A stretch of DNA of 64,000 nucleotides from Rhodocyclaceae bacterium. Its GTDB lineage: Bacteria; Pseudomonadota; Gammaproteobacteria; Burkholderiales; Rhodocyclaceae. Where the stretch lies: positions 1-64,000 of the forward strand of contig RXJP01000016.1 of assembly GCA_003963315.1 (NCBI GenBank), read 5' to 3'. Under the pieces are notes generated by a model. The model had not been told where the DNA came from. It did no database searches and saw only the letters and a list, made by a program, of their open reading frames with translations. Within the stretch, counting starts at the first letter, position 1; every line of letters starts with the position of its first letter. Positions 6,162 through 38,103 of this stretch are shown here, one piece after another. A program made the position numbers and the translations under genes.

Positions 6162-6316
6162 ATAGCGACACGCTACTGTCGGAATGCCCTACCGGCAGGC
6201 TCTGCCCGACAATCTCCCTGCTTTTCCCGCATTCCCTTTGGCCTGAAAGGATGTACCTTAACCGCTGACTGAACACGTCAGGCAAGCAGCCGGTCATCCA
6301 CAACGAAAGGGGAGCC

Positions 6317-7423: not shown

Positions 7424-7474
7424 AGCATCGCCTGCCTCCCAAAAACAAGGCCTTCACGACGCCCAACTGACACC

Positions 7475-8572: not shown

Positions 8573-8702
8573 GACACCCCGCCGACAAGCGGGAACAAGG
8601 AAACACCGTGCTGTTGCCCCTTTACCCTGCCCGTCAAAATGACGGAATAGGCGCTAAGGTAGGCCGCTGGAAGTTCACCCGACACTGAAACGGACGACAC
8701 TG

Positions 8703-13207: not shown

Positions 13208-13209
13208 GG

Positions 13210-14028
13210 TTAGCGTACTTGCGAAAGAGTTTGAAAGTCTGTCATGAACTGATCGATGCTGCGGGCCAGTTCGCCGTTGTTCTGGGCCATGATCCGATCC
13301 CAGGCCTGTTGGTTCTCGGCCTTGGCGGGCATCAGCGGGAAATCCCGGTTGGCCGCCATCCAGCTACGGGGGTTGCCGATGTCGCGATGGTACCGAACGT
13401 TGCAATAGGTGCCCATGCGCCCCAGCAGCCGGGGAATCACCTCGGTGCTGAAATCGATCTGCGTTTTCCCCAGGCCTGCCATCATGTCCAGCACCGGCGG
13501 CTCAACCAGGTATACCGCCGCATTGGCCAAGTTACCCGGCGGCTGGCTCACCTTCTCGTGGAAACCCTGGACGACGCCATCCGCGTCGAGTTCGACGATA
13601 CCGCAGGATCCGGGATCGTCGCTCTCGAACACCATCATGGTCATCTCGACGCCCTTGGCGCGGAGAGCGTGGCAGCGAGCGAAATCGGCCATGTCGAACA
13701 GGGTCAGATTATCGGCGTGGGCCACCAGGCAGGTTTCTTCCCGGAAGAACGCCCGGTTCTCCAGCAAGGTGCCGCCGGTGCCGGCCAGACTTTCTTCATG
13801 CACCACCTTGACCCTGCTCCGCCATGTGCTGGCGTCCAGGTATTGCAGCACCAGCGGCGCCATGTAATGGGTATTGATCAAGACCTCCTCGACCCCGTGG
13901 TCGAGCAGCAGGGCCAGCCAGTAGTCCAGCAGCGGGCGGCCGTGGATGGGCACCAGGCACTTGGGCAGATGGTCGGTCAGCGGCCGCAGGCGCGTGCCGA
14001 GGCCGGCGGCTAGCAGCAGGGCGCGCAC
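13210..14028 (-). CDS. Sugar-1-phosphate nucleotidyltransferase (HddC-like)
   Basis: MRALLLAAGLGTRLRPLTDHLPKCLVPIHGRPLLDYWL. Confidence 0.85.
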   Translation of the reverse strand: MRALLLAAGLGTRLRPLTDHLPKCLVPIHGRPLLDYWLALLLDHGVEEVLINTHYMAPLVLQYLDASTWRSRVKVVHEESLAGTGGTLLENRAFFREETCLVAHADNLTLFDMADFARCHALRAKGVEMTMMVFESDDPGSCGIVELDADGVVQGFHEKVSQPPGNLANAAVYLVEPPVLDMMAGLGKTQIDFSTEVIPRLLGRMGTYCNVRYHRDIGNPRSWMAANRDFPLMPAKAENQQAWDRIMAQNNGELARSIDQFMTDFQTLSQVR

Positions 14029-14037
14029 AGTCTGGCC

Positions 14038-15549
14038 TCAGCTGTAGTCATTGCTTTTATTGACTTCCACCAACAGCTCCGTGGCGGACAGGGGAATATT
14101 GCCGATACGCCCCACTTGGCAGGCAGCGGCGATGGAACCGAGATAGATGCTTTCCCAGATCGGCCGCCCCACCGCCATGGCCAAGGCGGTGCATACCAAC
14201 AGGCAATCGCCGGCGCCGGCGGTGTCCTTGGGTGAAGTGTTCAGGGCAGCCAGACGGTCGGTCAGCCATTCCGCCTGGTTCGGGTCGCCCACATGCAACA
14301 ACAGGCCTTCGGCGCCCAGGGTGATGACGATATTCTGGGCATGGGTCTTCTTGCGCAACGCTTCGGCCAGGACCACCAGGCCATCGTCGTAGTTGCCCAG
14401 GGCGAGGCGGGCCTCACGCTCAGTGGGGGTCAGCAGTGCGGTATGGGTGAAACGGGAGACATCGCCGATTTGCGATGAAGACTGGCTGTCCGCCACCATC
14501 ATGATGCCGCGCCGGGTGCACTCCTGGGTGATCTGGTCCACCAGTTCCTGGGGCAGCGCGCCGTAATTGAAGTCTGAGAAGATCAACAGGTCTGCGTCCC
14601 CCAGCACACGCTTCACGCGCTCCAGGGCTTTCTTTTGCAAGGGCTTGCTCAGCTTGTGCTGACGCAGGTGATTGACCCGCAGCAAGGTCTTGTTGCCGGC
14701 GCGATAGCGTTGCTTGAGGGTGGTGGGGCGGCTGTCGTCCACCAGCAGGCTGGCGGTGACGCCGTATTCCTGCAACTTGTCGGCGGCGTAGCGCCCAACC
14801 TCGTCATCGCCGGTGACGGAGACGAAGCTGACTTTCTGCGCCCCCAGGCCCCGGGCATGGGCGGCGACGATGCCGGCGCCACCGAGGAACTTGTTGGCCA
14901 TGATCGGGGCGACCACGATGGTGGGGTCCTCCTGGGACATGCCCAGGGGGTCGCACTGGATGTACTCGTCCACGATGATGTCGCCGACGACGCAGACCTT
15001 CAGTCCCTGGATTTTCTCCAGTACGCTGCCAAAGCAGCCGACATCGATGCTGTGGTTGGCGATGTAGGCCGATGGCCGGATGATGGAGGAGTGGTTGATC
15101 AGTTCAGATTCTTTACGCAGCAGCTCCAGGGAGGAGAACGTCGTATCGCCGGAGCCGAACAAAACCTGGCCGCCGTAGGCATGCACCGCGTCCAGTTCCG
15201 GCGTAACCGCATGTTCGTGTTCGTTGCCCATCACCACCACAGCGGGCTGTAGGGCCTGGATCAAGTCCTCCGGCGGCGAAGCAAGGACGAAGGCATGGTT
15301 GACCCAGTTGATCGCCGCCACGCCTTCCAAGCGGGCCTGCTCCTTGAGTTGCGCGCTTTTCGCCAGTTCGTCCGAGAGTACGCCCACCACCAGATAATCG
15401 CCGCACTCCGAGGCGAAGCGCAGCAGACGCAAATGCCCGGGGTGAACGATGTTGAAGGTGCCGCTGACAAAGACGATCCGCTTCTTTCCCCGCGCATCGG
15501 AAAGAATGGTTTTTACAATGGCATCGATGTCCTTGTTATACCCGGTCAC
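14038..15549 (-). CDS. HldE/RfaE-like bifunctional protein: N-terminal nucleotidyltransferase + C-terminal PfkB sugar kinase
   Basis: FVSGTFNIVHPGHLRLL (HxGH) at N-terminus; VVGDIIVDEYIQ, GGAGIVAAHARGLG and DTAGAGDCLL PfkB motifs at C-terminus. Confidence 0.85.
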   Translation of the reverse strand: MTGYNKDIDAIVKTILSDARGKKRIVFVSGTFNIVHPGHLRLLRFASECGDYLVVGVLSDELAKSAQLKEQARLEGVAAINWVNHAFVLASPPEDLIQALQPAVVVMGNEHEHAVTPELDAVHAYGGQVLFGSGDTTFSSLELLRKESELINHSSIIRPSAYIANHSIDVGCFGSVLEKIQGLKVCVVGDIIVDEYIQCDPLGMSQEDPTIVVAPIMANKFLGGAGIVAAHARGLGAQKVSFVSVTGDDEVGRYAADKLQEYGVTASLLVDDSRPTTLKQRYRAGNKTLLRVNHLRQHKLSKPLQKKALERVKRVLGDADLLIFSDFNYGALPQELVDQITQECTRRGIMMVADSQSSSQIGDVSRFTHTALLTPTEREARLALGNYDDGLVVLAEALRKKTHAQNIVITLGAEGLLLHVGDPNQAEWLTDRLAALNTSPKDTAGAGDCLLVCTALAMAVGRPIWESIYLGSIAAACQVGRIGNIPLSATELLVEVNKSNDYS

Positions 15550-15570
15550 GGTCTCGCATCCCTTCCTGTT

Positions 15571-16689
15571 CTAATCGTCTGTCGGCGCAGCGGTGCGCAC
15601 CTCCATGCCCTTGTCGATCTCAATCAGGGGCCGGGTGACGCGATGTTGCTCCAGATCATCCAGGGCTTCATTGATCTGGTCCAAGGTGTAGCGTTTGGTG
15701 ATGAGTTTATCCAGGGGTAGCCGGCCCTCCCGATAGAGCTGGGCGAATAAAGGCACATCCCGGTCGGGATCGGCGCTGCCGCCCCAACTCCCCCGGATCT
15801 GTTTACCGCAAATCAGCTCGTAGGGATCGATGGAAATGCGGCTGCCATGTTGGGGATGGGAGGCGAACACGCACACCCCCCCACCACGGCGCACGGCGGC
15901 GAAGGCCTGCTCGATCACGCTGGCCTGGCCGGAGGCTTCCACCGCGTAATCCACCCCGGCGCCGCTGGTCAGCGCCCGGATGGCGGCCACCGGATCGGTG
16001 TCGCGGGCATCAATGACATGGTGGGCGCCGAAGGACTGGGCGAGGGCCAGCTTCTCCTCGGATACATCGACGGCGATGATGCTGGCGCACTGGTACAACA
16101 AGGTCGCCATCAGGGCGCTGAGGCCGATGCCGCCGAGGCCAAAAATGGCGATGGTGCTGCCCGGCCGCGGCTGGAGGTCATGGGTGATGATACCGGCGCC
16201 GGTGGGCACGGCGCAGCCGAACAGCACCGCCACATCCAGGGGCACGCCGGCCGGCAGCTTGACGATACGGTTTTCCGACACCAGGGCGTACTCGTTGAAG
16301 GTGGTCACGCCGCCGGCATTGATGGGCTGGGGCAGGCGGGGGCAGGCGTACTTTGCGCCACCGCCGTCGAGGCCGCTGCCCTTGATCCAGCCCAGGATCA
16401 CCAGCTCCCCCGGCGCCACCTTGGTGACGCCATCACCCACCGCCACCACCCGACCCGATCCTTCGTGGCCCAAGAGATGCGGCAAATAGGGGTCGTCACC
16501 GCGCCGGCCGCGGGCTTCCATCAACTGGCTGTGGCAGACGCCGCTGTAAGCCAACTTCACCAGCACCTGACCTTTGCCGGGCTGGGGATGGGTGACCCCG
16601 GAGAGCAGCGTCAGGGGTTGGCCCAACTGGGTGAGGACGGCGGCTTTAATGGACGTGTCTCCCATCGATGCGGACCCAGGCCCACTCAA
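15571..16689 (-). CDS. Zinc-type medium-chain alcohol dehydrogenase
   Basis: SGVCHSQLMEARG, HLLGHEGSGRVVAVGDGVT, IFGLGGIGLSAL. Confidence 0.88.
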   Translation of the reverse strand: MSGPGSASMGDTSIKAAVLTQLGQPLTLLSGVTHPQPGKGQVLVKLAYSGVCHSQLMEARGRRGDDPYLPHLLGHEGSGRVVAVGDGVTKVAPGELVILGWIKGSGLDGGGAKYACPRLPQPINAGGVTTFNEYALVSENRIVKLPAGVPLDVAVLFGCAVPTGAGIITHDLQPRPGSTIAIFGLGGIGLSALMATLLYQCASIIAVDVSEEKLALAQSFGAHHVIDARDTDPVAAIRALTSGAGVDYAVEASGQASVIEQAFAAVRRGGGVCVFASHPQHGSRISIDPYELICGKQIRGSWGGSADPDRDVPLFAQLYREGRLPLDKLITKRYTLDQINEALDDLEQHRVTRPLIEIDKGMEVRTAAPTDD

Positions 16690-16716
16690 TCAAGCCGGCG
16701 CTACGGCGCCCCGTTT

Positions 16717-18432
16717 TCAATCGGCCAGCTCCGGCCGCATCGACGACAGCGGCTGGGGGCTGAAAGTGCCGTCGCCGTTGGCGGCATAGGCCTGGCGGAA
16801 CAGTACTTCCTGTTCTTCGTCCACCACCACTTCGCAGATCACCGGCCCTTCCGCTTTCAACACCTCACTTACCACGCGCTCAAGGTCGCTGGCGGCATCC
16901 AGCTTGACATAGGGGATGTCGAAGGCATGGGCCAGCTTCTCGATGGAAGGCATGGCCAGGCTCCACTCGGGATGGGTACCGAAATAGCGCCCACCGAGGA
17001 ATTCCTTTTGGGTGTGGCGGATCGCCAGATAACCGTTGTTGTTGACCACGCTGATGACTGCATTGATGTTGTCCTGGCGGATGGTTTGCAGATCCTGGAT
17101 GTTCATCAGGAAACTGCCGTCGCCGATCACGCAGAGGAGCTTGGAGAATGCACCGCTCTTGGCCACGCCTATGGTTTCCGCCAACCCCGTGCCCATGGCC
17201 GAGATGGCGGAAGAACAGATGATGCGGTCGCCCTGTTTCAGCACAGCGGCCTGGAACCCGGCATACAAGGCGGTACCGCCGCCGTCCACCACCAGACACG
17301 TGCCGGCGGGCGCGGATTGGGTCAGGCGACGGACATAGACGTTGGAGTTCGGCCGCGGCCCCACGGGCGGGACGTACCAGTTCATGGCCTTGATCTTGTC
17401 GGCATCGGGCCAGGCCTGGGCGGGCAGATCGGCTGCGGCCAGCACGGCCAAGTAGTCCTTGAGATCGGCCAGCACCTTGAGATCCACGGCAACGTTGAGA
17501 TTGTCCAACTGATCCTGATCGATGTTGACCATGATCTTCTTCGCCTGGGGTGCGTAGCTGTCAAACAAGGTGGTGGTGTGGGGAATCGATAGGTGGGTAC
17601 CCAGGCAGAGCAGCAGGTCCGCCTGGAACACCGCGTGATTGGCGCCCCGCTGCCCGCTCATGCCAATGACGCCCAGGTTGAGCGGCTCGTCCGTGGGGAA
17701 CAGGTCAGCCCCCGTCCAGGTGGTCACATAGGGAATCCGGTGTTGCTCGATAAAGCGCCCCAGGGCATCGCCGCTGCCGGCCAGGCGGACGCCGTAGCCC
17801 AGCACCAACAAGGGCTTCTTCGCCTCTCGCAGCATGGCGATGGATTTCGCCGCGGCGGCCTGGTCGAATTCCGCCTTGTCCGCCACGCTGGGGGCGAGCA
17901 CGGCATCCGGCACGGCAACGTCCTGCCACTGGAAATCGAGGGGCAGATCGATCCACACCGGCCCCGGCCGGCCGGAGCGGGCCACCGTCAAGGCATGGGC
18001 AAACTCGGTGGGGAACTGGTCCTTGTCGGTGACGAACTTCACATATTTGCTTAGGGGCCGTACTACATCGCAGATGTTGACCTCCTGTGTGCCCACCTGG
18101 CGCACCTTGCGGCCATAGGAGGTGTGTTGCGAACGCACCTGGCCGCTGATGAAGAGGCAGGGAATGGAGTCCTGCCAGGCGGCCAGCAGGCCGGTGATGG
18201 CATTGGTGGCGCCGGGGCCCGTGGTCACCACCACGCAGCCCAGGTTTTGCGTCGCCTTGGCATAGGCCACCGCGGCGAGGGCGGCGGATTCCTCATGGTG
18301 GGTATAGGTCACGCCCAGGCCGGCCAGCTCCAGGGAATCGAAAATATGGGCGACGGCGCCCCCTTGCAGTCCAAACACATGGCCGACGCCGTTGGCCTTG
18401 AGTATTTCAGCGATTGAATCGGTCAGTTTCAC
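16717..18432 (-). CDS. ThDP-binding acetolactate synthase-like enzyme
   Basis: THHEESAALAAVAYAKAT, VVTTGPGATNAITGLLAAWQDSIPCLFISGQ, GDGSFLMNIQDLQTIRQDNINAVISVVNNNGY. Confidence 0.9.
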   Translation of the reverse strand: MKLTDSIAEILKANGVGHVFGLQGGAVAHIFDSLELAGLGVTYTHHEESAALAAVAYAKATQNLGCVVVTTGPGATNAITGLLAAWQDSIPCLFISGQVRSQHTSYGRKVRQVGTQEVNICDVVRPLSKYVKFVTDKDQFPTEFAHALTVARSGRPGPVWIDLPLDFQWQDVAVPDAVLAPSVADKAEFDQAAAAKSIAMLREAKKPLLVLGYGVRLAGSGDALGRFIEQHRIPYVTTWTGADLFPTDEPLNLGVIGMSGQRGANHAVFQADLLLCLGTHLSIPHTTTLFDSYAPQAKKIMVNIDQDQLDNLNVAVDLKVLADLKDYLAVLAAADLPAQAWPDADKIKAMNWYVPPVGPRPNSNVYVRRLTQSAPAGTCLVVDGGGTALYAGFQAAVLKQGDRIICSSAISAMGTGLAETIGVAKSGAFSKLLCVIGDGSFLMNIQDLQTIRQDNINAVISVVNNNGYLAIRHTQKEFLGGRYFGTHPEWSLAMPSIEKLAHAFDIPYVKLDAASDLERVVSEVLKAEGPVICEVVVDEEQEVLFRQAYAANGDGTFSPQPLSSMRPELAD

Positions 18433-18485
18433 CTTGATGCGTCCTTAGCGTCCTGCCAGCGATGGATAATGGAATGGCATCGCGC

Positions 18486-19163
18486 TCACTTGCGCCCGAC
18501 ACCGACGGCGAACAGGTAATGGGCCATGGGGTAGTAGCCGGTATGGACCATCTCGTCGTTCATGGAAAAGATGAAGGTGTTGGCGAAATAGCGGTCGGAA
18601 AGTTCTTTCAGGGTCTTGGCGTTCTTCAGGTTGATGTGTTGATGATCGCTACGATGGGTGGCGTACTGGGAGGCGGATTCATTGGGGGTGCCGATGATCA
18701 TGACGCCATCCTTGCTCAGGCAGCTCACCATGTTTTCGACGAAAGGGCGTTCGTAGGCCGGCTCCAGGTGTTCGATCACGTCGATGTTGAAGATCGCGTC
18801 GTATTCGCCCGGGGGCGGTGCGGAGGAAACATCGGCGACATCGAAAGTGACGTTGCCGAGGAAGGCCAGGCGGCGGCGATTGCCGACGATGTTCCTTTCC
18901 TCCCAGTCCACACAGTGGAGCTTGCCCACCTCCTGGGCGACGATGGGGGTACCGAAACCGTCGCCGCAGCCCACCTCCAGAACCCGGGCCTTGCCGGACA
19001 GCATCTTGGCGCAGAACTTATAACGGGCGAGGACGAAGGCCATGTGCTTGGGGTCATGGCGCATGCTGTAAGAAGTCCACGGTCCCAAGGGGATTTCTTC
19101 CGTTTCAAATTGATCGTTGGTGGCCTCAATATGGAGCTTCCAAGCCAGACGGGACTCTTGCAT
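18486..19163 (-). CDS. Class I SAM-dependent methyltransferase
   Basis: ARVLEVGCGDGFGTPIVAQEVG, DAIFNIDVIEHLEP. Confidence 0.85.
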   Translation of the reverse strand: MQESRLAWKLHIEATNDQFETEEIPLGPWTSYSMRHDPKHMAFVLARYKFCAKMLSGKARVLEVGCGDGFGTPIVAQEVGKLHCVDWEERNIVGNRRRLAFLGNVTFDVADVSSAPPPGEYDAIFNIDVIEHLEPAYERPFVENMVSCLSKDGVMIIGTPNESASQYATHRSDHQHINLKNAKTLKELSDRYFANTFIFSMNDEMVHTGYYPMAHYLFAVGVGRK

Positions 19164-19231
19164 AGCGTTTCCTTTAGGTCATTCATGTCGCCAAAAACCG
19201 GCCGCGAAAGTAGTTTCGCGACGCCGGCGCG

Positions 19232-20050
19232 TCAGGTATTCCGGTTCCTTCTCAGCTTGTACATATTCTTGTCCGCCTTCAACTCGGCGGCCAGTTCGTC
19301 ACTGCCCCAGGCATCGTGCACCACCGACAGGTTGCGCCCGCCCACCACATCGCGGCCTTGCCGGCTCGACCATTCCAGGCACTGGTAGATGTCCTCGAAG
19401 GAGGTCCCATTGTCGGCGGAGGAAGCCATGAACTGCTCCACCCGCGCCAGATTGCCTTCCGCCCTCGTCCCGGCCTTCAGGGTCTCGTAGTGGGTCTTGG
19501 TCTTCACGAAGCCGGGGCCGAGGATGAAGATGTTGACGTCGTCGGCTTCGTCGTCAATCAGCTCGCACATCTTGATCAGGCCGATTTTGGCCACGCAATA
19601 AGCGGAATAACAACGGAAGGGGTTGTTGGTGCCTCCCCCCGCCAACAGGGCGATGTTGGCGATTTTCGTGGCGTCCCGCAAGGGGTAGAGGGCGTGTACG
19701 GCGCGGAGCTGGGAAACCATGTTGACGTCTACCGACTGCGCCCAGTCGTCGAAGTCCAGGTCGAAGAAACGGCCAATCGGCTCGCTGGTGCCCACCGAAC
19801 TGAACAGGGTATTCCAGGCATAGCCGCTATCTTCGACAAAGCGGGCCAGGGCGGCAACGTCCTGTTTGTGCGTCAGGTCGCATTGGAACAGGGTGACGCC
19901 GTTCAGGTTTTCCAATTCTTCCCGCGCGGCGAAATCCTTGCGATAAGTGCCCAGCACCTTGGCGCCATCGCGCTGATACAAGCGACAGATGTTCTGGCCA
20001 ATATCGGCGCTGACGCCGAGGATGATGATGGCGGTCATGGTCGGCTCCAT
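19232..20050 (-). CDS. Short-chain dehydrogenase/reductase
   Basis: IIILGVSADIGQNICRLYQRDGAKVLGTYR; YSAYCVAKIGLIKM (YxxxK). Confidence 0.85.
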   Translation of the reverse strand: MEPTMTAIIILGVSADIGQNICRLYQRDGAKVLGTYRKDFAAREELENLNGVTLFQCDLTHKQDVAALARFVEDSGYAWNTLFSSVGTSEPIGRFFDLDFDDWAQSVDVNMVSQLRAVHALYPLRDATKIANIALLAGGGTNNPFRCYSAYCVAKIGLIKMCELIDDEADDVNIFILGPGFVKTKTHYETLKAGTRAEGNLARVEQFMASSADNGTSFEDIYQCLEWSSRQGRDVVGGRNLSVVHDAWGSDELAAELKADKNMYKLRRNRNT

Positions 20051-21219
20051 TACTGAAACAAGGCCAGCAATCGGTCCATGCCCTTCTGGATGTTGGCCGA
20101 AGAGTTGGCGAAACAGAAACGCACATAGCCTTCGCCATGTCGGCCGAAGAAGGAGCCGGGGCAGGCGGTAACGCCCGCCTGTTGCAGGATGTGGTCGGCG
20201 AACTCACGATCCGTCATACCGCTTTTCTTGACGTTGGCGAAGGCATAGAAGGCCCCCTTCGGATACTGGCAGGACACACCGCGAATCTGGTTCAACAGCC
20301 CCACCATCAAGTCCCGCCGCTGCCGGTACTCCTGCATCATCGCCGAGATGGCGGACTGGCTGGCCGTCATGGCCTCGATGGCCGCCGCCTGGATGAAGGG
20401 CGAAACGCAGGAGGTGGTGGTTTCCAGCAGCAGTTGCATCCTGGCCACCAGGTCGGCCGGGGCGGTCATCGCACCGATGCGCCAGCCGGTCATCGCGTAG
20501 GACTTGCTGAAGGAATGGACGATGATCGTCCGCTCTTTGCACTGGTCGTAAACGCTGGGGGAGGCGAACTTGGTGTCGGCATCCTCGTACACCATGCGGC
20601 CATAGACTTCGTCGCTCAGCAGATACAGATCGTACTTCTCGGCGATGTCGTAGATCGCCTTCATCTCCGCCTCGCCCAGCACTGCGCCGGTGGGGTTGTG
20701 GGGCGAGTTGATGAGGATCATGCGGGTCTTGGGCGTGATCGCCTTTTCCAAATCCGCCGGATCGAGCTCAAACTGGTTTTCCTCATACAGCGGCACGCCG
20801 ACGGGGACAATGCCCAGCAGCTTCATGATGGAACGGTAGGAGACGAAACAAGGGTCCACCGTGACCACTTCCTCCCCCGGATTCACGGTGCAGGCCAAAG
20901 CGTAGTAAATCTGCACGTTGCCGCCCTGGGTCACCAGGATCTGGTCATGGCTGGGGCGGAACCCACGGGAGCGCTGGGTGATGTCCGCCGCCGCGCGCTT
21001 GAAGCCCTCGGTGCCGGAAGAGTTGGTGTAGTGGGTGTCGCCCCGGCGCAGGGCTTCGATGCACTTCTCGACGATGTTCGGCGGCGTATCGAAATCCGGG
21101 TCGCCGATTTCGAAGTGGACAATGTCCCGCCCAGCCTGTTCCAGTTGCCGCGCCTGGGACAGGATCTGGAACATCTGCTGTCCCTCGAGGACTTTGCTGG
21201 CTTCGGAAAAGTGTTTCAT
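20050..21219 (-). CDS. Class I PLP-dependent aminotransferase (AspC-like)
   Basis: INSPHNPTGAVL, LSDEVYGRMVY, SFSKSYAMTGWRIG. Confidence 0.92.
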   Translation of the reverse strand: MKHFSEASKVLEGQQMFQILSQARQLEQAGRDIVHFEIGDPDFDTPPNIVEKCIEALRRGDTHYTNSSGTEGFKRAAADITQRSRGFRPSHDQILVTQGGNVQIYYALACTVNPGEEVVTVDPCFVSYRSIMKLLGIVPVGVPLYEENQFELDPADLEKAITPKTRMILINSPHNPTGAVLGEAEMKAIYDIAEKYDLYLLSDEVYGRMVYEDADTKFASPSVYDQCKERTIIVHSFSKSYAMTGWRIGAMTAPADLVARMQLLLETTTSCVSPFIQAAAIEAMTASQSAISAMMQEYRQRRDLMVGLLNQIRGVSCQYPKGAFYAFANVKKSGMTDREFADHILQQAGVTACPGSFFGRHGEGYVRFCFANSSANIQKGMDRLLALFQ

Positions 21220-21247
21220 CTGGGAAATCCGTTTGCTTCGTCAGCGC

Positions 21248-22318
21248 TCAAAACGGACCGGCGAACCAGTCGCCCGGCACGTCATGGGGATGGCTTCTTT
21301 GCCCGGCCAGGGGCGCGGTGTCCACCGGCCGTCCGAGCATGGTGCCGATCCGCCCGGCGACATGCTCGGCGCGGACATGGTAGTGCTCGGTCAGCGCCGG
21401 GCTGGTGGCTTCGGGGAAGTCGGGCATCGCCAGGCGCTGCGGTGCGCAGATCAGGGCATCCCAGCAGCGCTCGGCGATACGCGCCACCACTTCGCCGGAC
21501 ACGGAGCCGGTCAGGTTGCCCGTATCCAGCACCAGCAGACGCCCGGTGCGGCACACGGAGGCCTCGATGGTCGGCCAGTCGATGGGGCGGATGCTGCGCA
21601 GATCGATCAGGTCGCAATGGATGCCCTGGGCGGCCAGATAGTCCGCTGCGTGGATGGCCTCGACGGTCATGTAGGACATGGACACCACGGTGATGTCCTT
21701 GCCCTCCCTCACGGTCTTCGCCTTGCCCAGGGGCAGGCGGTAGTCGCCGGCGGGTACTTCGCCCTTCATGTTGTGCAGCCAGCGGTGTTCCAGAAAGATC
21801 ACCGGATCGGGATCGAAGATTGCCGACAGCAGCAGCCCCTTGGCGTCTTCGGCACTGGCCGGCATCACCACTTTCAGTCCGGGCACATGGGCGAACCAGG
21901 CCTGTAGGTTTTGCGAATGGGTCGGCCCCTGTCCCCAGCCGCGGCCGAGAATCATGCGTACCGTCAGCGGCACGCTGCGTTGCCCGCCGAACATGAAGTG
22001 CCACTTGGCGGCGTTGTTCACCAACTGGTCCATGGACAGCAAGGCGAAATCCAGGCGCTGGTGGGTGATGACGGGGCGCAGGCCATACAGCGCGGCACCG
22101 ATGCCGATGCCGGTCATGGCATTCTCGGCGGTGGGCATGTCGAACAGCCGCTCCGGACCAAATTTTTCCTGCAAGCCAAGGGTGGTGCCAAACACGCCCT
22201 TGGGGTCGGGCACCCCCAAGCCATAACAGATGACGCCGGGGTCGAGGCGCATCGCCTCGCTCAGCGCGGCGTTGATCGCCTGGGCGAAGGTCGTCTGGCT
22301 CATGCCGCCCCCGCCCAT
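21248..22318 (-). CDS. ThDP enzyme beta subunit, 2-oxoacid dehydrogenase E1-beta/transketolase C-like
   Basis: FAQAINAALSEAMRLDPGVICYGLGV, MPTAENAMTGIGIGAALYGLRPVI. Confidence 0.88.
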   Translation of the reverse strand: MGGGGMSQTTFAQAINAALSEAMRLDPGVICYGLGVPDPKGVFGTTLGLQEKFGPERLFDMPTAENAMTGIGIGAALYGLRPVITHQRLDFALLSMDQLVNNAAKWHFMFGGQRSVPLTVRMILGRGWGQGPTHSQNLQAWFAHVPGLKVVMPASAEDAKGLLLSAIFDPDPVIFLEHRWLHNMKGEVPAGDYRLPLGKAKTVREGKDITVVSMSYMTVEAIHAADYLAAQGIHCDLIDLRSIRPIDWPTIEASVCRTGRLLVLDTGNLTGSVSGEVVARIAERCWDALICAPQRLAMPDFPEATSPALTEHYHVRAEHVAGRIGTMLGRPVDTAPLAGQRSHPHDVPGDWFAGPF

Positions 22319-23286
22319 GGATTGGCGTAGAGGTCGGTGTAGGCCGTCTCGGGGGCAGGCCAGGGTGCGGCCTCCGCATCGGCGAAGGCGGCGTCAACTT
22401 CCTGTTTGATGTCGGCGTCCATGCGCGCAACATCATCGGCATTCATGGTGGCATCCGCAAGCAAGGCGGCCTGCAAGCGTTCAACGGGGTCTTTTGCTTT
22501 CCAGGCCAGGTATTCGGCCTCGGTCCGATAGCCGATGTCATTGTCGAAGTTGGGCCCGCAATGCTCCAGCCAGCGGTAGGTGGAAAACTCCAGGAACCTG
22601 GGGCCGCCGCCGGCGCGAATCTCGGCCAGGGCCTTGCTGATTTTTTCGTAGGCCGAGACGGCATCATTGCCGTCGCCACGATCCACGGTGATACCGAGTC
22701 CGGCCACCAGGGAAGCAATATCCCGTCCCGGGGCTTGTCGGACCTGCAACGGGGAATAGACGGAGTAGAGATTGTTCTCGCACAGGAACAGGACAGGCAA
22801 CTGTTTCAGCGCGGCAAAGTTGGCGGACTCGAAAAATGCGCCGGTCTCCAGCACCGCGTCGCCGTGGAAGATGCAGCTAACCTGGCTGCTACCCTTGAGC
22901 TTCATGCCATAGGCCAACCCCACACCCACCGGCACAGTGCCGCCAACAATGGCCGTGCTGCCCATGAACCCCACCGACTCGTCAATCAGGTGCATGGAGC
23001 CGCCCTTGCCTTGACAGCACCCTGTGGCCTTGCCGTAAATCTCCGCCAGCATCGCCTTGAGGTTGCCGCCCTTGCCCAGATAGTGGGCGTGGGCGCGATG
23101 GCCGCTCACCGCCTTGTCGTCCTGGCGCAGCGCCAGGCCCGCCGCCGCGGCAACGCCTTCTTGTCCCACGGACAAATGGGTGGGACAACGCATTTTGCCT
23201 TCGGGGTAACGCCGGGCGATCTCTGCCTCGACGAAGCGGATACGCTTCATCTGGTTGAGCAGCGCCTTGGCGGTGTTTGGGTTCAC
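22300..23286 (-). CDS. ThDP enzyme alpha subunit, 2-oxoacid dehydrogenase E1-alpha-like
   Basis: THLSVGQEGVAAAAGLALRQDD, SGHRAHAHYLGKGG, KGGSMHLIDESVGFMGSTAIVGGTVPVGVG; GTGA overlap with upstream stop sets start at 23286. Confidence 0.88.
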   Translation of the reverse strand: MNPNTAKALLNQMKRIRFVEAEIARRYPEGKMRCPTHLSVGQEGVAAAAGLALRQDDKAVSGHRAHAHYLGKGGNLKAMLAEIYGKATGCCQGKGGSMHLIDESVGFMGSTAIVGGTVPVGVGLAYGMKLKGSSQVSCIFHGDAVLETGAFFESANFAALKQLPVLFLCENNLYSVYSPLQVRQAPGRDIASLVAGLGITVDRGDGNDAVSAYEKISKALAEIRAGGGPRFLEFSTYRWLEHCGPNFDNDIGYRTEAEYLAWKAKDPVERLQAALLADATMNADDVARMDADIKQEVDAAFADAEAAPWPAPETAYTDLYANPWAGAA

Positions 23287-23942
23287 GGCACGAACCAGAA
23301 ATAGTCGCCGCTGTAGCCGGCTTCGGCGAACAGGTCGAGCCACTCGTCCACAGAGAGGATGGTCTTTGCCGTCAGGTTCCAAGCAAACATGGCTTCCTTC
23401 TCTTCCTCGTTGCGATAGGCATCCACGGTGATGAAGCTGTGCTTGCGGCTCACGCGCTCGATCTCGCGCAGGGCACGGATAAGCTCGGCCCGCTCCAGGT
23501 TGTGGATGGTATTGATGGACACCACCAGATCGAAGGACTTGTCGGCGAAGGGCAGCTCTCGGGCATCGGCCTGCTGTATGTGGGGCCGCATGTCTTCGAT
23601 GCCGTTGTCCACCGCATATTGGCTGATGTCGACGCCCTTTACGGTGATGCCCGGAATCAGGCGGGCGAAATCGTGAAGCATGAAGCCCTTGGCGCAGCCC
23701 ACATCCAACAGGGAATGGGCGTTGGTCAGGCCGTAGAACTGCTGGAAGGTGGGCACCACCGGCTGCCAGAAGCGTTCATGGTAGGAAAACCCGCCATAAC
23801 CGGTACGGCGCTCGCCGTCAAAAAAATCCTTGCCGAACTGACGAGCGACGGCGCGATCCTCCTCGCTCTTCTCCGCACCCCGTTGCTTCACATCACGCTT
23901 GGTCTTGGGGTAGTTCACCAGCAAATCAATTTCACGTCCCAT
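23283..23942 (-). CDS. Class I SAM-dependent methyltransferase
   Basis: SLLDVGCAKGFMLHDFARL, FDLVVSINTIHNLER; start chosen at MGREIDLLVNYPK. Confidence 0.82.
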   Translation of the reverse strand: MGREIDLLVNYPKTKRDVKQRGAEKSEEDRAVARQFGKDFFDGERRTGYGGFSYHERFWQPVVPTFQQFYGLTNAHSLLDVGCAKGFMLHDFARLIPGITVKGVDISQYAVDNGIEDMRPHIQQADARELPFADKSFDLVVSINTIHNLERAELIRALREIERVSRKHSFITVDAYRNEEEKEAMFAWNLTAKTILSVDEWLDLFAEAGYSGDYFWFVP

Positions 23943-23965
23943 TTCACCTTCCCTCGCCGTTCTTC

Positions 23966-24952
23966 TCAGGCCTTGTGCTGATAGTCCAGGGGTTGCTGGC
24001 TGAGCACTGCAAAATTCTTCCTCACCCAATCTATGCACTCATCCAGCCCCTGATCCAGGCCGATGGCGTCCTGCCACGCCAACTCGCTTCTCAGTTTGCT
24101 GCTGTCCAAGTGATAGGCAGAGTCCTTGCCCAGGCGCTCGCCCACCACTTCCACATGCTTGGCAAAGTCCACGCCCAGCTTCGCGCATATCTTTTCCACC
24201 AATTCCCGAATGGAAATCACGTCGTGGGTGGCGATGTGATAGGTGTCGCCATTTTGGCCCTGGTGCATGATCTTCCAGGTGGCATCCGACACATCGCGAA
24301 TATGAATGAAGGAACGGGTCGACACGCCGCCGCCATGGAGTTGCAGCTTGCGCCCCATGAGGATGAACAGGATCGTCCGCGGGATGATGCGATACAACTG
24401 CTGGCCAGGGCCGTACACGTTGGCGGCACGGGTGCTGACCACGGGGAAGCCATAGGTTGCATGGAACGTGCGCAGACTCAAATCCGCCGCCGCCCGCGAA
24501 ACCGCATAGGGCGTGGAGGGATTGAAAGGATGGTCTTCCGTCACGAAACCGGAGCAACTGCCGTAAACCTCCGGCGTGGTGACATGGACGTAGCGCTTGA
24601 GGAAATCACACTTGCGCAACGCATCGTGGAAGTTGATCGTGGCCACCACATTGGTCATGAACCAGTCGCCCGGGCGCTGCCAGCTCTCTCCCACCATGCT
24701 TTGGGCGGCAAAGTTCACCACGTAGTCGGGGCAGACACCGTGGGCAAGGTCCATGATGCTACCTAGATCCCGATTCAGGTCCAGTTGATGGAATTCGAAA
24801 TTGTCATGCCGATGCCACGCATAGGGCAGCAACTCCGGGATCGGCTCGGGAGAGCGGCTGATGCCCACCACCCGGGCGCCCTTGCCGAGAGCGAAATCGA
24901 CAAAGCTCGCACCGGAAAAGGAATTGCTGCCAACCGCCAAAATGGTTTCCAC
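23966..24952 (-). CDS. GDP-mannose 4,6-dehydratase-like NAD-dependent epimerase/dehydratase
   Basis: GSNSFSGASFVDFALGKGARVVGISRS, NFAAQSMVGESWQRPGDWFMTN, TPYAVSRAAADLSLRTF. Confidence 0.87.
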   Translation of the reverse strand: METILAVGSNSFSGASFVDFALGKGARVVGISRSPEPIPELLPYAWHRHDNFEFHQLDLNRDLGSIMDLAHGVCPDYVVNFAAQSMVGESWQRPGDWFMTNVVATINFHDALRKCDFLKRYVHVTTPEVYGSCSGFVTEDHPFNPSTPYAVSRAAADLSLRTFHATYGFPVVSTRAANVYGPGQQLYRIIPRTILFILMGRKLQLHGGGVSTRSFIHIRDVSDATWKIMHQGQNGDTYHIATHDVISIRELVEKICAKLGVDFAKHVEVVGERLGKDSAYHLDSSKLRSELAWQDAIGLDQGLDECIDWVRKNFAVLSQQPLDYQHKA

Positions 24953-24953
24953 G

Positions 24954-25526
24954 CTACCCCTCCTGACGCTGCTCGTAAAGCCACTGCATCAACATGTGGC
25001 CGACGATGACCTGCATATCCTCGGCGATCTGCATGTCGCCCACCGGGAAGTGGATGGCGTTATCGACAAGGGCCCGACACTGCCCGCCTTCGTAACCCAG
25101 GATGGCGTGGGTTTTGATTCCCATCGTCTTGGCCTGATGGATCGCGTTAACGATGTTCGCCGAATTGCCGCTGCCGGACAGGACGATCAGCAAGTCGCCG
25201 TGATTGCCCTGCACCGCCAGTTGTTCGCTATAGATTCTGTCGTAGCCCAAATCATTGGCCAGGCAGGTCAGGACGGCCGGATTGGCTGGCAGGGCCAAGG
25301 CCTTGATGCCGCGACCGGTGCGTTTGGCAACCCCATAAACAAAGTCGTTTGCCAAATGCATGGCATTCCCCGCGCTGCCGCCGTTACCGCACAGGAAAAC
25401 CTGTCCGCCCCCACGCCACACGGCTAGCATGTCCCGGGCAAGCACGGTTACGCCTTGCCAATCGCTCGAGGCCAAGACGGCGCCGAGCTTTTCCGCATAT
25501 TTTGAAAAAAAATCCTCTAAGGCCAT
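24954..25526 (-). CDS. SIS-domain phosphosugar isomerase (GmhA-like)
   Basis: VFLCGNGGSAGNAMHLANDFVYGVAK; LIVLSGSGNSANIVNAI. Confidence 0.85.
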   Translation of the reverse strand: MALEDFFSKYAEKLGAVLASSDWQGVTVLARDMLAVWRGGGQVFLCGNGGSAGNAMHLANDFVYGVAKRTGRGIKALALPANPAVLTCLANDLGYDRIYSEQLAVQGNHGDLLIVLSGSGNSANIVNAIHQAKTMGIKTHAILGYEGGQCRALVDNAIHFPVGDMQIAEDMQVIVGHMLMQWLYEQRQEG

Positions 25527-25607
25527 AGAAGCACTCAATCTCTCTTGATCAACTCCCAACCTCGGGAACCACCTCGGATACGCCCCGCCCGAAGCGAAAG
25601 GGGCTGC

Positions 25608-26546
25608 TCAGGCCAGGCTGTTCTTCTGCATCCATTTGAGGTTGTGGTAACGATCCTCATCACGGAAATCCCCTTGGCGGAATTTCTCCACGAGCTCACG
25701 GATTGCGGTGTCGACATTCTTGCGGGGGAAAAACCCGGTGGCCAGCAACTTGTCGGAATTGACCCGATAGGACCGGGGATCATTGGATTCGGTAACAACG
25801 ATTTCTGCCGGCACATGCCGGGTCACCATTTCAGCGATTTCCAGAATGGAGAGGTTCTCGAAACCGGCGTTATAAATACCCGTCGCTTCGGGGTGGTCGA
25901 TCAGGTGCAGGTAAACGTCGGTAATGTCATCGATATGAATGTTCGGTCGAATTTGCTTTCCGCCGAATACCGTGACCCGGCCCTTGGTCAAGGCTTGCAC
26001 TGTCAACATATTCACCGACACATCCAAACGAAGGCGCGGCGAATAACCACAGACTGTTGCGGGACGGACTATTTGCACCGCCATGTCGTCCTGGTAGCTG
26101 AGGAGCACCCGCTCCGCCACCATCTTCGTTTTGTTGTATTCCGAGATGGGCTCGAGCTCCAACTCTTCCACCACCTGCAACTCTTCCTTGACCCCATACA
26201 CGCTGCCGGACGACGCATAGATGAATCGTTTCACGCCGCAGCGCTTGGCCCGGTCGGCCAACTGCATGGTAGCCAGCGCGCTGGTCTCCCATGTGAGCTT
26301 CGGATTGAGGTCGCCACAGGGGTCATTGGCGATTGATGACAGATGGACGATGCAATCGATACTGTCCAGGGGAACTGTGTGGATATCCCTCACGTCGCCC
26401 TGGATCACGACAAGGTTTCCATGGGGCTGGAGATAGTTGCCGAACCACTGCGTATCAAAGGCCACCACTTGATAGCCGCGATCCAATAATTTCGGGATGA
26501 GCACATGGCCTTTGTATCCGCATCCCCCGGTCACCAACACCTTCAT
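25608..26546 (-). CDS. NAD-dependent epimerase/dehydratase
   Basis: MKVLVTGGCGYKGHVLIPKLLDRGYQVVAFD, IYASSGSVYGVKEEL, YNKTKMVAERVLL. Confidence 0.88.
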   Translation of the reverse strand: MKVLVTGGCGYKGHVLIPKLLDRGYQVVAFDTQWFGNYLQPHGNLVVIQGDVRDIHTVPLDSIDCIVHLSSIANDPCGDLNPKLTWETSALATMQLADRAKRCGVKRFIYASSGSVYGVKEELQVVEELELEPISEYNKTKMVAERVLLSYQDDMAVQIVRPATVCGYSPRLRLDVSVNMLTVQALTKGRVTVFGGKQIRPNIHIDDITDVYLHLIDHPEATGIYNAGFENLSILEIAEMVTRHVPAEIVVTESNDPRSYRVNSDKLLATGFFPRKNVDTAIRELVEKFRQGDFRDEDRYHNLKWMQKNSLA

Positions 26547-26933
26547 CGCCTTACTCCACATGGACATTCGGGCACACGTGACCCGGATTTGGCTTACCGC
26601 CCTCAACCGGGCCCTGTCTCAACGTTCTACCCTTCGGGGATCGCAAAACCTTATATAGGGCTTTGTGATTTAACCATGGCGTTCTCATTGCCCGGCCTGA
26701 TGAAATCGGGGCAATTCCCCCTGTTTTCCCCGGCCAACCCCGATAAAGAGGTGCAAAATGCCGGGGGTTCCCTACTTTCCAGCGATGGGCTGGGGATTTA
26801 GCGAAGCGCGAACAACTGTTAACAACGGCGCAGACCAGGGTTTCTTGACTACCGTCCGTTTATATTCAGGCAATTGATTAATCGCGCCCCCGATGCCCCT
26901 TGAGGTCATTCAAAGAACAAAGTCTTTGCGTGC

Positions 26934-26960
26934 TAAAGATAGGCCTATATTTGCCGCTAT
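26934..26960 (+). promoter_or_regulatory. Sigma28 (FliA)-type promoter upstream of the acyl carrier protein gene
   Basis: TAAAGATA-N11-GCCGCTAT versus consensus TAAAGTTT-N11-GCCGATAA (6/8 and 6/8, exact spacer); ~20 nt before ATG. Confidence 0.6.
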
Positions 26961-26980
26961 AACATGACGAGCCCTATCTT

Positions 26981-27241
26981 ATGAACGATGCCATCCTCAC
27001 CTTTGTCCTTCGCCGCATTCAAAAAAATGGCGCCATCCCCGAGGCGGTCTCCATCCTGGACTTCGATTACCGGGGAGCGGGTTTCGTGGACTCCATCGGC
27101 ATCATGAAATTCGTGTTGGATATTGAAGCCGAATTCGGCATCGAAATCTCCGATGCCGACATGGAGGATCGTGCGTTCAGTACGGTCGGCGGCCTTGTTT
27201 CCATCATTGAACGGCGTTTGCAGCAACGCCGTCCTGGATAG
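26981..27241 (+). CDS. Acyl carrier protein
   Basis: 86 aa, GFVDSIGIMKFVLDIEAEFGIEISDADM with the DS(I/L) phosphopantetheine serine motif. Confidence 0.88.
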   Translation: MNDAILTFVLRRIQKNGAIPEAVSILDFDYRGAGFVDSIGIMKFVLDIEAEFGIEISDADMEDRAFSTVGGLVSIIERRLQQRRPG

Positions 27242-27255
27242 CGCCTCCACCGAAC

Positions 27256-28356
27256 ATGGCTGAGAAAACCATGGACCGGCTCATCCTGGGCAATCCCGAT
27301 CAAGCTCAACACGATGAAGAGGCCCTTCGTTTCATCGACGCTTTTCTCTCCTCGAACAAGCAACCCCGCTATGTCCTGGGGCGTAATGCATACGCCGGTG
27401 CAGTGGCCCATTTGGTGCCTATCACGGGTTTCATTGATGACTATACGGACCAGAAAGAGCATTCTGGGCTGCCCATCGTCAAAAGTGCCGCGGTGCCCGC
27501 CGATGCGTTGGTACTGAGCGCCTCAAGCCTGCGCCCACTGACGGCTTTACGCCAATTGCAAGCAAGGCACCTGCGATGTCTGGATTACTTCGCCTTCCGT
27601 AGATTATCCGGCTTGCCGCTGCCTCAGCTTATGTTCAACGATGGATTTGCCGAGGACTTCGCAGCCCACCAACAGGAATACGCCTGGATTTATGATCGCT
27701 TGGCGGATGACACCTCCAAGTTGGCCTTTAGGAAGCTGCTGAGTTTCCGCGTCACCCAGGACATCGTCCATCTCGACGGCTTCACCAGCCGGGAGGACCA
27801 ACAATATTTTGAAGACTTCCTAGGCCTGCGACCCGAAGCGGAAACATTCATCGACGTGGGCGGCTACGATGGCTATACGAGTGCGGAGTTCATCCGCCAT
27901 TGCCCCCAGTACAGCAGCGTCCATGTTTTTGAGCCGGAGCCCGCCAACTATCAGGCCTGCCGGAAAAAGCTGGAAAGCCATGCCAATGTCCATATCCATA
28001 ATGTCGGCCTATCCGATCAATGCGGGCAAGTTCGGCTCAATCCCCATGGGTCCGCGTCCAAATTATCTGATGAAGGATCGGTGTCCATCCAGCTCAATCG
28101 ATTGGACGATCTTACCGATGAAATAGGCATCCCCAGCTTCATCAAGGTCGATGTAGAAGGCGAGGAAACGGCGGTCATCGCAGGGGCCACGGCGACAATT
28201 GCGCGCCATCACCCGCGCCTCGCAATCTGCGTCTACCACACCCCGTCAGACTTCTGGAAAATCCCTCGACGAATACTCAGCCTGCACGATGGCTATCGCA
28301 TCCATCTACGGCACTATACCGAGTCCATTTACGAGACCGTAATGTTCTTCAGTTGA
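27256..28356 (+). CDS. FkbM family methyltransferase
   Basis: FIDVGGYDGYTSAEFIRHCP, VHVFEPEPANYQACRKKL, PSFIKVDVEGEETAVIAGA. Confidence 0.92.
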   Translation: MAEKTMDRLILGNPDQAQHDEEALRFIDAFLSSNKQPRYVLGRNAYAGAVAHLVPITGFIDDYTDQKEHSGLPIVKSAAVPADALVLSASSLRPLTALRQLQARHLRCLDYFAFRRLSGLPLPQLMFNDGFAEDFAAHQQEYAWIYDRLADDTSKLAFRKLLSFRVTQDIVHLDGFTSREDQQYFEDFLGLRPEAETFIDVGGYDGYTSAEFIRHCPQYSSVHVFEPEPANYQACRKKLESHANVHIHNVGLSDQCGQVRLNPHGSASKLSDEGSVSIQLNRLDDLTDEIGIPSFIKVDVEGEETAVIAGATATIARHHPRLAICVYHTPSDFWKIPRRILSLHDGYRIHLRHYTESIYETVMFFS

Positions 28357-28394: not shown

Positions 28395-30947
28395 TCATGC
28401 CGGGGGCCGTGTGCCAATAGCCACCAGGGCATCGCCAAGTTCCCCCACGACCAACCCATCCCACTCCGCCTTAACTTCGGCCAGACGCTGACGAATCCGC
28501 GCCCCGATGGCGCGCTTCTTCTCCGGGTTCCGTGCCAAGTCGATAGCGATGGAGACATACTCCTCCGGGGTCTTGGCTACCGTATCCATAACGCCGAATG
28601 CCTCATACCATCCCCCCACCGAACGGGAACGGAAATACTGCATGGGCATCGTTACCACGGGTATCCCCAGGCTATTCGCCAAAAACCCCGTGGTACCGGC
28701 GCCAAAATGGAAAGGGTCCAGCAAAATATCCGCATGGAACAGCATGGACCTGAACTCGGGGCCACTCAGCCAATTTGAAAAACGGATCCTGTCGCGCAGC
28801 GAAACATCGGGAATGGTCTTCTTGAATCGTTGCAGCAGCAGCTCGTGCCAGGAAGAATTAATATCGTCCTTGAACAGGACGATTTCTCCTTCGGGGTCGG
28901 CTTCCAGAAGCCTGGCCATGATCCCGTCGAAGTCCGGATGCAGTTTCTGCAACTTCATGGGCACCACATAGGCCCGCTTGTTACTCAGGCCCACAGCATG
29001 TCGGGCGAGCACAACACCCAGTTCCTCAGGGGGCGGCAGAAAAAGGCCGCCGTGCTTCAATCGCACCAGCTTCTCACTATAGTGTTCCTCCGCGCCTGCA
29101 ACCTCTCCCGGACTGTCCCAGGTGAATCGATAGTCGACGGTGGAAATGCCCGATGTATCCGGATGGCCATTGAAGCAGCACTGCGCCGGTGCCAAGCGGA
29201 AGTGGGCAAGAAAATTCCCGAAGGAATACATTCCCAGGTCAGCATAGATGATGACGTCGAAGCTCAGCTCGGCGATGGCGTCACGCACCGCCAATAGATC
29301 CGTATCCGGCATTGATAAATAATGGGCGATCCCATTAATCAGGTCCAAATGCATGGGATCGGTGACTTTCCCCCCGCCCAAGGACACAACGCTGATCTCC
29401 AGGTCCTCCCGCGCAGCCAAGGCTTTGATGATGGGGTTGTAAGCCACACCAACCGAGTGGCTGAACAGGAATTTCGAGACGAAGGCCACCCTCAAGCGCT
29501 TGCCTCGTGCGGGTTTTTCGGCCAGCCGGGGATTAATCCAATTCAACTCAGGGCAGGCATGGCGCAACACTCGGGAATATTTGCTCAAAATATCCCGATC
29601 ATTCATGCCATGGAAGGCCAGATAGAAACCGGTTTCCACCAGCAGCCGTAGGTCCAAAACACCGACCTTCCCCCCTTCTTCGGCGGCCAATGCATCCAGG
29701 GATTGTTCTATCCGGGCACGGGACGCCAGGATGTCCTGCCTATCCCCCATGATGGGCGGCTGCAACATGGCGGACAGGATGCGAATGACCGTATTGCCGC
29801 TGACTTCATACGCCCGTTTGTAGAGATCGAGCGCTTCATCCTGTCGCCCGGCATCCGCCTCAAGCACTGCAAGCTGAATGAGCGAATCGAGGTTTGTCGG
29901 CTCGACTGCCAAGCCCTCCCGCTCCAACGCCATGGCAATGTCCGGCTGTTTCCTGTCCAGGTATACCTTGGCCAGATGATGATAGGGTTTGGCATCATCT
30001 GGTTTGAGTGCAATGGCAGCCCTCAGATAGGACTCGGCTTCCTCCACTCGCCCTACCGCCCCCATGGTTGCACCGAGATTGGCCAGAAACTCCGGCCGGC
30101 TCCCGTCGATTTCCGCTGCCTTGCGGAAGCAGAACTCCGCTTCGCCGAACATGTTGTTGCTGAAATAAAGAAAGCCGATGTCGTTGTAAGCGCCTGCGTG
30201 GTTGGGATCCAGTTCCAGCGTCTTTTCGTAATAAGCCAGGGCATCCGCCGGCCGCCCCGCACGCCCCATCAGCGCCGCAATATTGAAGGACCTCCTGGTC
30301 GAGGGTTCCAGCTCAAAATTTTCCTGGTAGCACTGAATCGCATCCTCCAGGCGCCCTGGCCTATTGGCCAGCAAAGCGGCCAAATTGTCCCGAAGCAACA
30401 TCGCCTTGGGCGAAAGGGAGATGGCCCGCCGAAAAACGGCTTCTGATTCGTCCGCATTTCCCAGCAGGCGGAGCACGTGGCCCAGATTGTTGGCTGCGTC
30501 CACATCCCCAGGGGCCAAATCCAAGGTGGCGCGATAGGATTGTTCGGCCTCACCATAGGCTTGAAGACCTTCCTGCGCCAAACCCAATTGGAAATACCCC
30601 CGAGGATCCGCAGGACGGGTTTCAATGTATTTCCGTAACGTAACCACCGCGTCCGCACATCTATTGGAGCGTCGCAGACTTTCCCCCAGCATCAGGGGAA
30701 TCTCAGGGTCCTTGCTCAGGCTGAGCGCAGCAGAGAAATGCTTCACGGCCGTTTCGGGATCGTCCAGCAGGATGGAAATCGCTCCCATCAGGGTATGGGC
30801 CTGCCAATTGGCCGGGTCGTTGCGAAGCGCAGCTTCCACCTCCCCCCTGGCAACCTGGTAACGGCCATGGTTGTAATGGTTGGCGGCCGCCTTCAACCGC
30901 TCCAACGATGCCCTCTGTTTAATTTTTGAACTGCCTGTCGCGGCCAT
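28395..30947 (-). CDS. TPR-repeat protein with C-terminal SPINDLY/OGT-like (GT41) glycosyltransferase domain
   Basis: ~10 TPR units (e.g. AYNDIGFLYFSNNMFGEAEFCFRKAAEID) followed by YADLGMYSFGNFLAHFRLAPAQCCFNGHPDTSGISTVDY and LDPFHFGAGTTGFLANSLGIPVVT. Confidence 0.9.
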   Translation of the reverse strand: MAATGSSKIKQRASLERLKAAANHYNHGRYQVARGEVEAALRNDPANWQAHTLMGAISILLDDPETAVKHFSAALSLSKDPEIPLMLGESLRRSNRCADAVVTLRKYIETRPADPRGYFQLGLAQEGLQAYGEAEQSYRATLDLAPGDVDAANNLGHVLRLLGNADESEAVFRRAISLSPKAMLLRDNLAALLANRPGRLEDAIQCYQENFELEPSTRRSFNIAALMGRAGRPADALAYYEKTLELDPNHAGAYNDIGFLYFSNNMFGEAEFCFRKAAEIDGSRPEFLANLGATMGAVGRVEEAESYLRAAIALKPDDAKPYHHLAKVYLDRKQPDIAMALEREGLAVEPTNLDSLIQLAVLEADAGRQDEALDLYKRAYEVSGNTVIRILSAMLQPPIMGDRQDILASRARIEQSLDALAAEEGGKVGVLDLRLLVETGFYLAFHGMNDRDILSKYSRVLRHACPELNWINPRLAEKPARGKRLRVAFVSKFLFSHSVGVAYNPIIKALAAREDLEISVVSLGGGKVTDPMHLDLINGIAHYLSMPDTDLLAVRDAIAELSFDVIIYADLGMYSFGNFLAHFRLAPAQCCFNGHPDTSGISTVDYRFTWDSPGEVAGAEEHYSEKLVRLKHGGLFLPPPEELGVVLARHAVGLSNKRAYVVPMKLQKLHPDFDGIMARLLEADPEGEIVLFKDDINSSWHELLLQRFKKTIPDVSLRDRIRFSNWLSGPEFRSMLFHADILLDPFHFGAGTTGFLANSLGIPVVTMPMQYFRSRSVGGWYEAFGVMDTVAKTPEEYVSIAIDLARNPEKKRAIGARIRQRLAEVKAEWDGLVVGELGDALVAIGTRPPA

Positions 30948-31069: not shown

Positions 31070-31096
31070 TAAAGTTTCCCGCCAGGGGGCCGATAA
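31070..31096 (+). promoter_or_regulatory. Sigma28 (FliA) promoter of first flagellin
   Basis: TAAAGTTT-CCCGCCAGGGG-GCCGATAA: exact match to the enterobacterial consensus with N11 spacer. Confidence 0.92.
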
Positions 31097-34860: not shown

Positions 34861-34878
34861 TTGGCACGACGGCTGCTA
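34861..34878 (+). promoter_or_regulatory. Sigma54 promoter of second flagellin
   Basis: TTGGCACGACGGCTGCTA: GG-N10-GC, near-consensus TGGCACG and CTGCT. Confidence 0.8.
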
Positions 34879-38076: not shown

Positions 38077-38103
38077 TTCAGTTTTCTCTATTAATGTCGT
38101 AAG
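38077..38103 (+). promoter_or_regulatory. Degenerate sigma28-like promoter upstream of fliD
   Basis: TTCAGTTT-N11-GTCGTAAG; exact spacer but only 6/8 and about 4/8 matches. Confidence 0.3.

Follow-up and report, generated by a model that had tools for sequence, protein, structure and literature searches.

The divided glycan cassette and its flagellar surroundings

The window, by which we mean the whole 64-kb stretch of DNA analysed here, belongs to a 3.77-Mb draft genome and holds an acyl carrier protein (ACP) gene followed by a gene for an FkbM-family methyltransferase (Table 1). These are the two families that the earlier note had named, and profile matches agree on both (PF00550 for ACP; PF05050 and TIGR01444 for FkbM). 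The ATG of the ACP gene at 26981 is backed by alignment with three orthologous ACPs, and the end of the pair lies 2.8 kb from the flagellin gene fliC1.

Based on relatives of FkbM in named genomes, the two genes close a conserved cassette with the order aminotransferase, NeuD/VioB-type acyltransferase, AMP-ligase, Gfo/Idh, ACP and FkbM. In the window this cassette comes in two pieces, 6317-12095 and 26981-28356, with 14.4 kb of opposite-strand glycan genes between them. Insertion of the opposite-strand cluster would explain the split most simply, although this history is unproven. The aminotransferase and acyltransferase assignments are family-level matches that do not reach equivalog cut-offs.

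Table 1 Genes and promoter-like sites of the window
Feature	Position	Strand	Evidence or remark
rmlB, rmlD, rmlA, rmlC (dTDP-4-keto-6-deoxyglucose and rhamnose supply)	2751-6161	+	profiles for rmlB, rmlA and rmlC, sequence for rmlD
Weak FliA-like site, 11.6 bits, inside the 3′ end of rmlC	6136-6162	+	181 nt before the aminotransferase gene at 6317
DegT/VioA-type sugar aminotransferase, first gene of the cassette	6317-7423	+	family match
Methyltransf_24 domain protein	7475-8572	+	domain match
NeuD/PglB/VioB-type sugar acyltransferase	8703-9380	+	TIGR03570, below cut-off
AMP-forming acyl ligase	9377-10930	+	family match
Gfo/Idh/MocA oxidoreductase	10917-12095	+	immediately 5′ of ACP in three relatives
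Opposite-strand glycan gene cluster between the cassette halves	12176-26606	-	gene content
Divergent intergenic region before ACP-FkbM	26607-26980		no sigma-70-type match beating shuffles
FliA (sigma-28)-like promoter match TAAAGATA-N11-GCCGCTAT	26934-26960	+	sequence, matrices
ACP, 86 aa, invariant Asp37-Ser38 attachment site	26981-27241	+	PF00550 (5e-6), ortholog alignment
FkbM-family methyltransferase, 366 aa, extra N-terminal region of ~190 aa	27256-28356	+	PF05050; TIGR01444 above cut-off
TPR protein with C-terminal GT41-like glycosyltransferase	28395-30947	-	convergent to FkbM, adjoins fliC1; same convergent layout in L164
Perfect FliA promoter TAAAGTTT-N11-GCCGATAA of fliC1, 16/16	31070-31096	+	internal yardstick
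Flagellin gene fliC1, 1008 aa	31194-34220	+	PF00669
Sigma-54-type promoter TGGCACG-N4-CTGCT of fliC2	34862-34877	+	conserved in G029
Flagellin gene fliC2, 1008 aa	34989-38015	+	PF00669
Weak FliA-like site of fliD	38077-38103	+	similar site before fliD in G029

The cassette is unbroken in Janthinobacterium lividum PAMC 25724 (L180) and Oxalobacteraceae UBA8502 (L164). Both have the gene set from aminotransferase to FkbM and the TPR glycosyltransferase in common with the window, but they differ from it in the unbroken run, in an ACP gene within ~50 nt of Gfo/Idh and in having no FliA site before ACP. The same absence holds for the distant orthologous cassettes, but ACP is operon-internal there. 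In J. lividum the cassette leads to the TPR glycosyltransferase and, nearby, flagellin; FkbM and the TPR-GT41 gene are convergent in the Oxalobacteraceae genome, as they are in the window. Halobeggiatoa has the same order from acyltransferase to ACP, then one extra gene before FkbM. A FliA-like site of 15.3 bits before its ACP gene (L158) was dismissed, because the DNA is AT-rich and similar sites are numerous within that 17 kb.

Flagellin lies inside the examined flanks of three loci (L157, L165 and L180); apart from J. lividum, a Hydrogenophilales and a Methylococcaceae genome have it near FkbM. The earlier note had linked the glycan region to motility, and gene order backs this link independently of any promoter. 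Orthologs of ACP-FkbM are absent from same-family genomes, and a relative with flagellins 89% identical (G029) is without the pair.

The genome has one clear FliA gene, on the same contig as the window (C149:81824-82483; 274 bits compared to a 190-bit cut-off, TIGR02479). Besides the perfect promoter of fliC1, a strong FliA site, TAAAGTTT-N11-GCCGTTAA, precedes flgM. Different sigma factors appear to drive the two 1008-aa flagellin genes, sigma-28 for fliC1 and sigma-54 for fliC2 (TGGCACGACGGCTGCT), and the same split is found in the relative G029 (L251). Weak sites of 12-18 bits at fliD and flgA recur at comparable positions in G029, so weakness is in itself compatible with function. The one between flgB and flgA (L064 14797-14823; 17.9 bits), similarly placed in G029, may feed flgAMN.

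Further FliA sites lie elsewhere in the genome. A strong one of 26.9 bits (L067 4867-4841, minus strand; C12:21840-21866) precedes a type IV pilin-like gene by 77 nt, which suggests a pilus gene under sigma-28 control. Another of 24.9 bits (L068 4456-4430, minus strand; C14:20429-20455) precedes a 47-codon ORF upstream of nifB. The flagellar region also encodes a protein combining a guanylate/adenylate cyclase domain, TPRs and a hemerythrin domain (47703-49007).

A sigma-28-like site upstream of the ACP gene

The gene ending at 26606 on the minus strand is divergent, so ACP-FkbM cannot receive read-through from upstream and must have its own promoter in 26607-26980. The motif that the earlier note had reported about 20 nt before ACP is present there. 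Its -35, TAAAGATA, occupies 26934-26941 and its -10, GCCGCTAT, occupies 26953-26960, with a spacer of exactly 11 nt (GGCCTATATTT) between them and 20 nt from the end of the -10 to the ACP ATG. The note had further called the sigma28 spacer exact. The word fits the spacer only, whose 11 nt are also the commonest spacing among lineage sites; of the 16 letters 12 agree with TAAAGTTT-N11-GCCGATAA, and the -10 core reads CGC rather than the sigma-28 core CG[A/T].

The -35 keeps its TAAAG core intact, and the octamer equals that of E. coli aer (TAAAGATA-n11-GCCGACAT), which is proven to be FliA-dependent (PMC2859248). The likeness to aer extends to the 11-nt spacer, a weak -10 and a non-structural, motility-related gene. 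The two differ in the core, which is CGA in aer and CGC in the window, and in activation, since CRP rescues aer whereas no activator site was recognised in the window.

Two small elements flank the site. A perfect palindrome, CAAAG-T-CTTTG (26918-26928), sits six bases 5′ of the supposed -35 and may be an operator or chance. A six-codon ORF (ATGACGAGCCCTATCTTATGA; 26964-26984) has an ATGA overlap with the ACP start, and the two may be translationally coupled if transcription begins upstream of 26964.

By plain letter count the candidate is at chance frequency. Two sites in the window match at least 12 of 16 letters, one being the perfect fliC site, compared to 1.05 expected; across the whole genome the 3-mismatch class numbers 172 sites versus 209 for a reversed control pattern. 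We rejected this count as a sole criterion: it treats variable and essential positions alike, and the conserved weak flagellar sites of fliD and flgA would fail it. Letter counting is a poor yardstick because constraint differs greatly between positions.

Two matrices were used instead. The lineage matrix is based on 45 sites upstream of flgM and fliC from relatives, including fliC1 and flgM of this genome, which give the motif TAAAGTTT-N11-GCCG[AT]TAA. With 15.2 bits, the candidate stands far below the fliC1 and flgM sites on the same contig (29.5 and 30.3 bits; 15 vs ~30) and also under 17.9, the leave-one-out minimum of true fliC/flgM sites. The E. coli matrix is based on 25 of the stronger sites among 52 FliA sites found by ChIP (PMC4183435), and scores the candidate at 18.8 compared to 20.3 for aer.

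We scanned 230 nt before each of 1052 starts in 1.28 Mb, a third of the genome that includes the whole window; genes were called by a simple codon model and are approximate. The sample is enriched for the flagellar contig and includes the small loci L067 and L068, which were picked for FliA matches, the genes behind those matches not being counted. By the lineage matrix the ACP upstream ranks 4th of 1052. The order is flgM, fliC, flgA, ACP, a lipoprotein-like ORF, a carbonic anhydrase-like protein, fliD, flgK, the aminotransferase at 6317, mraZ and flgL, and beyond these 11 none reaches 10.5 bits. At 15 bits or more there are three flagellar genes and ACP, with none of the 1044 non-flagellar, non-cassette upstreams; two of these 1044 reach at least 11.5 bits. 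The ranked motif scan that the earlier note had proposed as a check, carried out here on a third of the genome, favours FliA control, with none of the 1044 others reaching 15 bits; by letter count alone, such sites occur at random frequency.

The E. coli matrix also places the candidate 4th among all sites of a 520-kb sample. By the lineage matrix, the chance of an equal or better site in the last 127 nt of the shuffled intergenic region is ~0.0008. The pattern TAAAGNT-N12-GCCGNTA, derived post hoc from the candidate, occurs exactly four times genome-wide, at the candidate, fliC1, flgM and the type IV pilin-like gene.

Possible competing promoters and the broken core

One weakness of the candidate is its -10 core. 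C at the third core base is found in none of the 45 lineage sites, none of the 25 stronger E. coli sites and one of the 52 E. coli sites overall. This single case, cvrA, has a weak peak and no significant expression change. Sigma-28 promoters lose their activity when the CGA motif is mutated (PMC2859248). The predicted 5′ UTR would be ~14 nt, with a start 6-7 nt after the -10, and the Shine-Dalgarno sequence is weak; the fliC1 and flgM sites lie at a greater distance from their start codons than the candidate does.

Other promoters were sought over 26607-26990. A strict sigma-70 scan gave no match there, and the best score of a relaxed scan, made with an approximate matrix, was 9.6 compared to a shuffled mean of 10.8. 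A sigma-54 scan of the same interval found nothing convincing. Rfam and tRNA scans of the whole window returned no matches. Within the intergenic region no promoter match is better than the candidate, which ranks with genuine flagellar promoters and precedes a unit of fitting function.

A chance resemblance is nevertheless a substantial possibility, if one we lean against. The housekeeping RNA polymerase, alone or with an activator, would then transcribe ACP-FkbM, the unrecognised promoter lying in AT-rich DNA at 26900-26980, with a possible -10 such as TATAAC (26958-26963), which overlaps the supposed sigma-28 -10, or TATATT (26946-26951). Such a promoter does not emerge from the scans, where nothing of sigma-70 type beats the shuffles by the approximate matrix, and a chance site would hardly combine such a rank, position and gene function. 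In favour of this explanation are the chance-level letter count, the broken essential core and the ~0.8 equally good lineage-matrix sites expected per 520 kb at any position.

The overlap of GCCGCTAT with the sigma-70-like TATAAC also allows for two promoters on the same DNA, in which a weak FliA site would add a small flagellar boost to constant housekeeping transcription. Dual control is known for flagellar units, for example E. coli flgKL and fliDST. The -35 partner available to TATAAC is poor (TAAAGA, 18-nt spacer), and we regard this arrangement as improbable.

Use of the site by FliA for part of a flagellin-glycan pathway is plausible and unproven, and we give it about an even chance. 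The earlier claim of FliA control gains from the upstream rank and the aer-like -35 and spacer; it loses from the CGC core, the gap in bits to fliC and flgM, and the letter count. With a wrong base in the core of the match, sigma-28 control stays at about even odds.

A probable flagellin-glycan pathway, possibly timed by FliA

ACP and FkbM probably contribute to a modified sugar on the flagellar filament, as the last two genes of what would be a conserved flagellin-glycan cassette. Both the enzymatic steps and flagellin as the target are our inference. RmlA/RmlB would supply dTDP-4-keto-6-deoxyglucose, from which the DegT/VioA-type aminotransferase would form a 4-amino sugar; AMP-ligase, ACP and the NeuD/VioB-type acyltransferase would acylate this sugar; and FkbM would methylate the acylated product. 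Cut off from the other cassette genes by the opposite-strand glycan cluster, ACP-FkbM needs a promoter of its own. The aer-like sigma-28 site may provide it, starting transcription at ~26966-26968 after FliA release at hook completion, in step with fliC1.

Comparable systems exist. Two islands, for viosamine in P. syringae and for flagellin glycosylation in P. aeruginosa PAK, place an N-acylated, O-methylated amino sugar on flagellin (PMC3927599). Common to these and the window are an aminotransferase, a VioB-type acyltransferase, ACP and a methyltransferase acting on a dTDP sugar, together with rhamnose genes; the PAK island lies beside flagellin, and the window cassette is likewise near it. 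Unlike the islands, the window has an AMP-ligase and Gfo/Idh, an FkbM with an extra N-terminal region and a split cassette. In C. difficile, flagellin glycosylation genes adjoining fliC depend on the sigma-28 factor SigD (PMC3865298), but read-through from the fliC promoter is thought likely there, whereas a separate promoter is proposed in the window. Sigma-28-dependent flagellin-glycan genes are thus of a known kind, of which ACP-FkbM would be a new and unproven member.

The other half of the cassette also has a candidate. The 6136-6162 site is among the top nine upstreams by the lineage matrix and scores only 6.6 by the E. coli matrix. As a FliA promoter it is only suggestive, because of this poor score and its position within the rmlC coding sequence. 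A broader scheme, which we consider unlikely, would have a FliA promoter on each half of the broken cassette (26934 and 6136). Acylation and methylation would then be timed with fliC1, fliC2 would come earlier through sigma-54, and decoration would differ between early and late filament.

The cassette definition (aminotransferase, acyltransferase, AMP-ligase, Gfo/Idh, ACP and FkbM near flagellin) helps annotation even if FliA dependence fails. If FliA does use the site, the sugar-modifying enzymes would be made only while filament subunits are exported. The locus would offer an example of a broken operon gaining a motility promoter and, for a betaproteobacterial-type lineage, would tie glycan chemistry to the flagellar sigma factor in a directly testable way.
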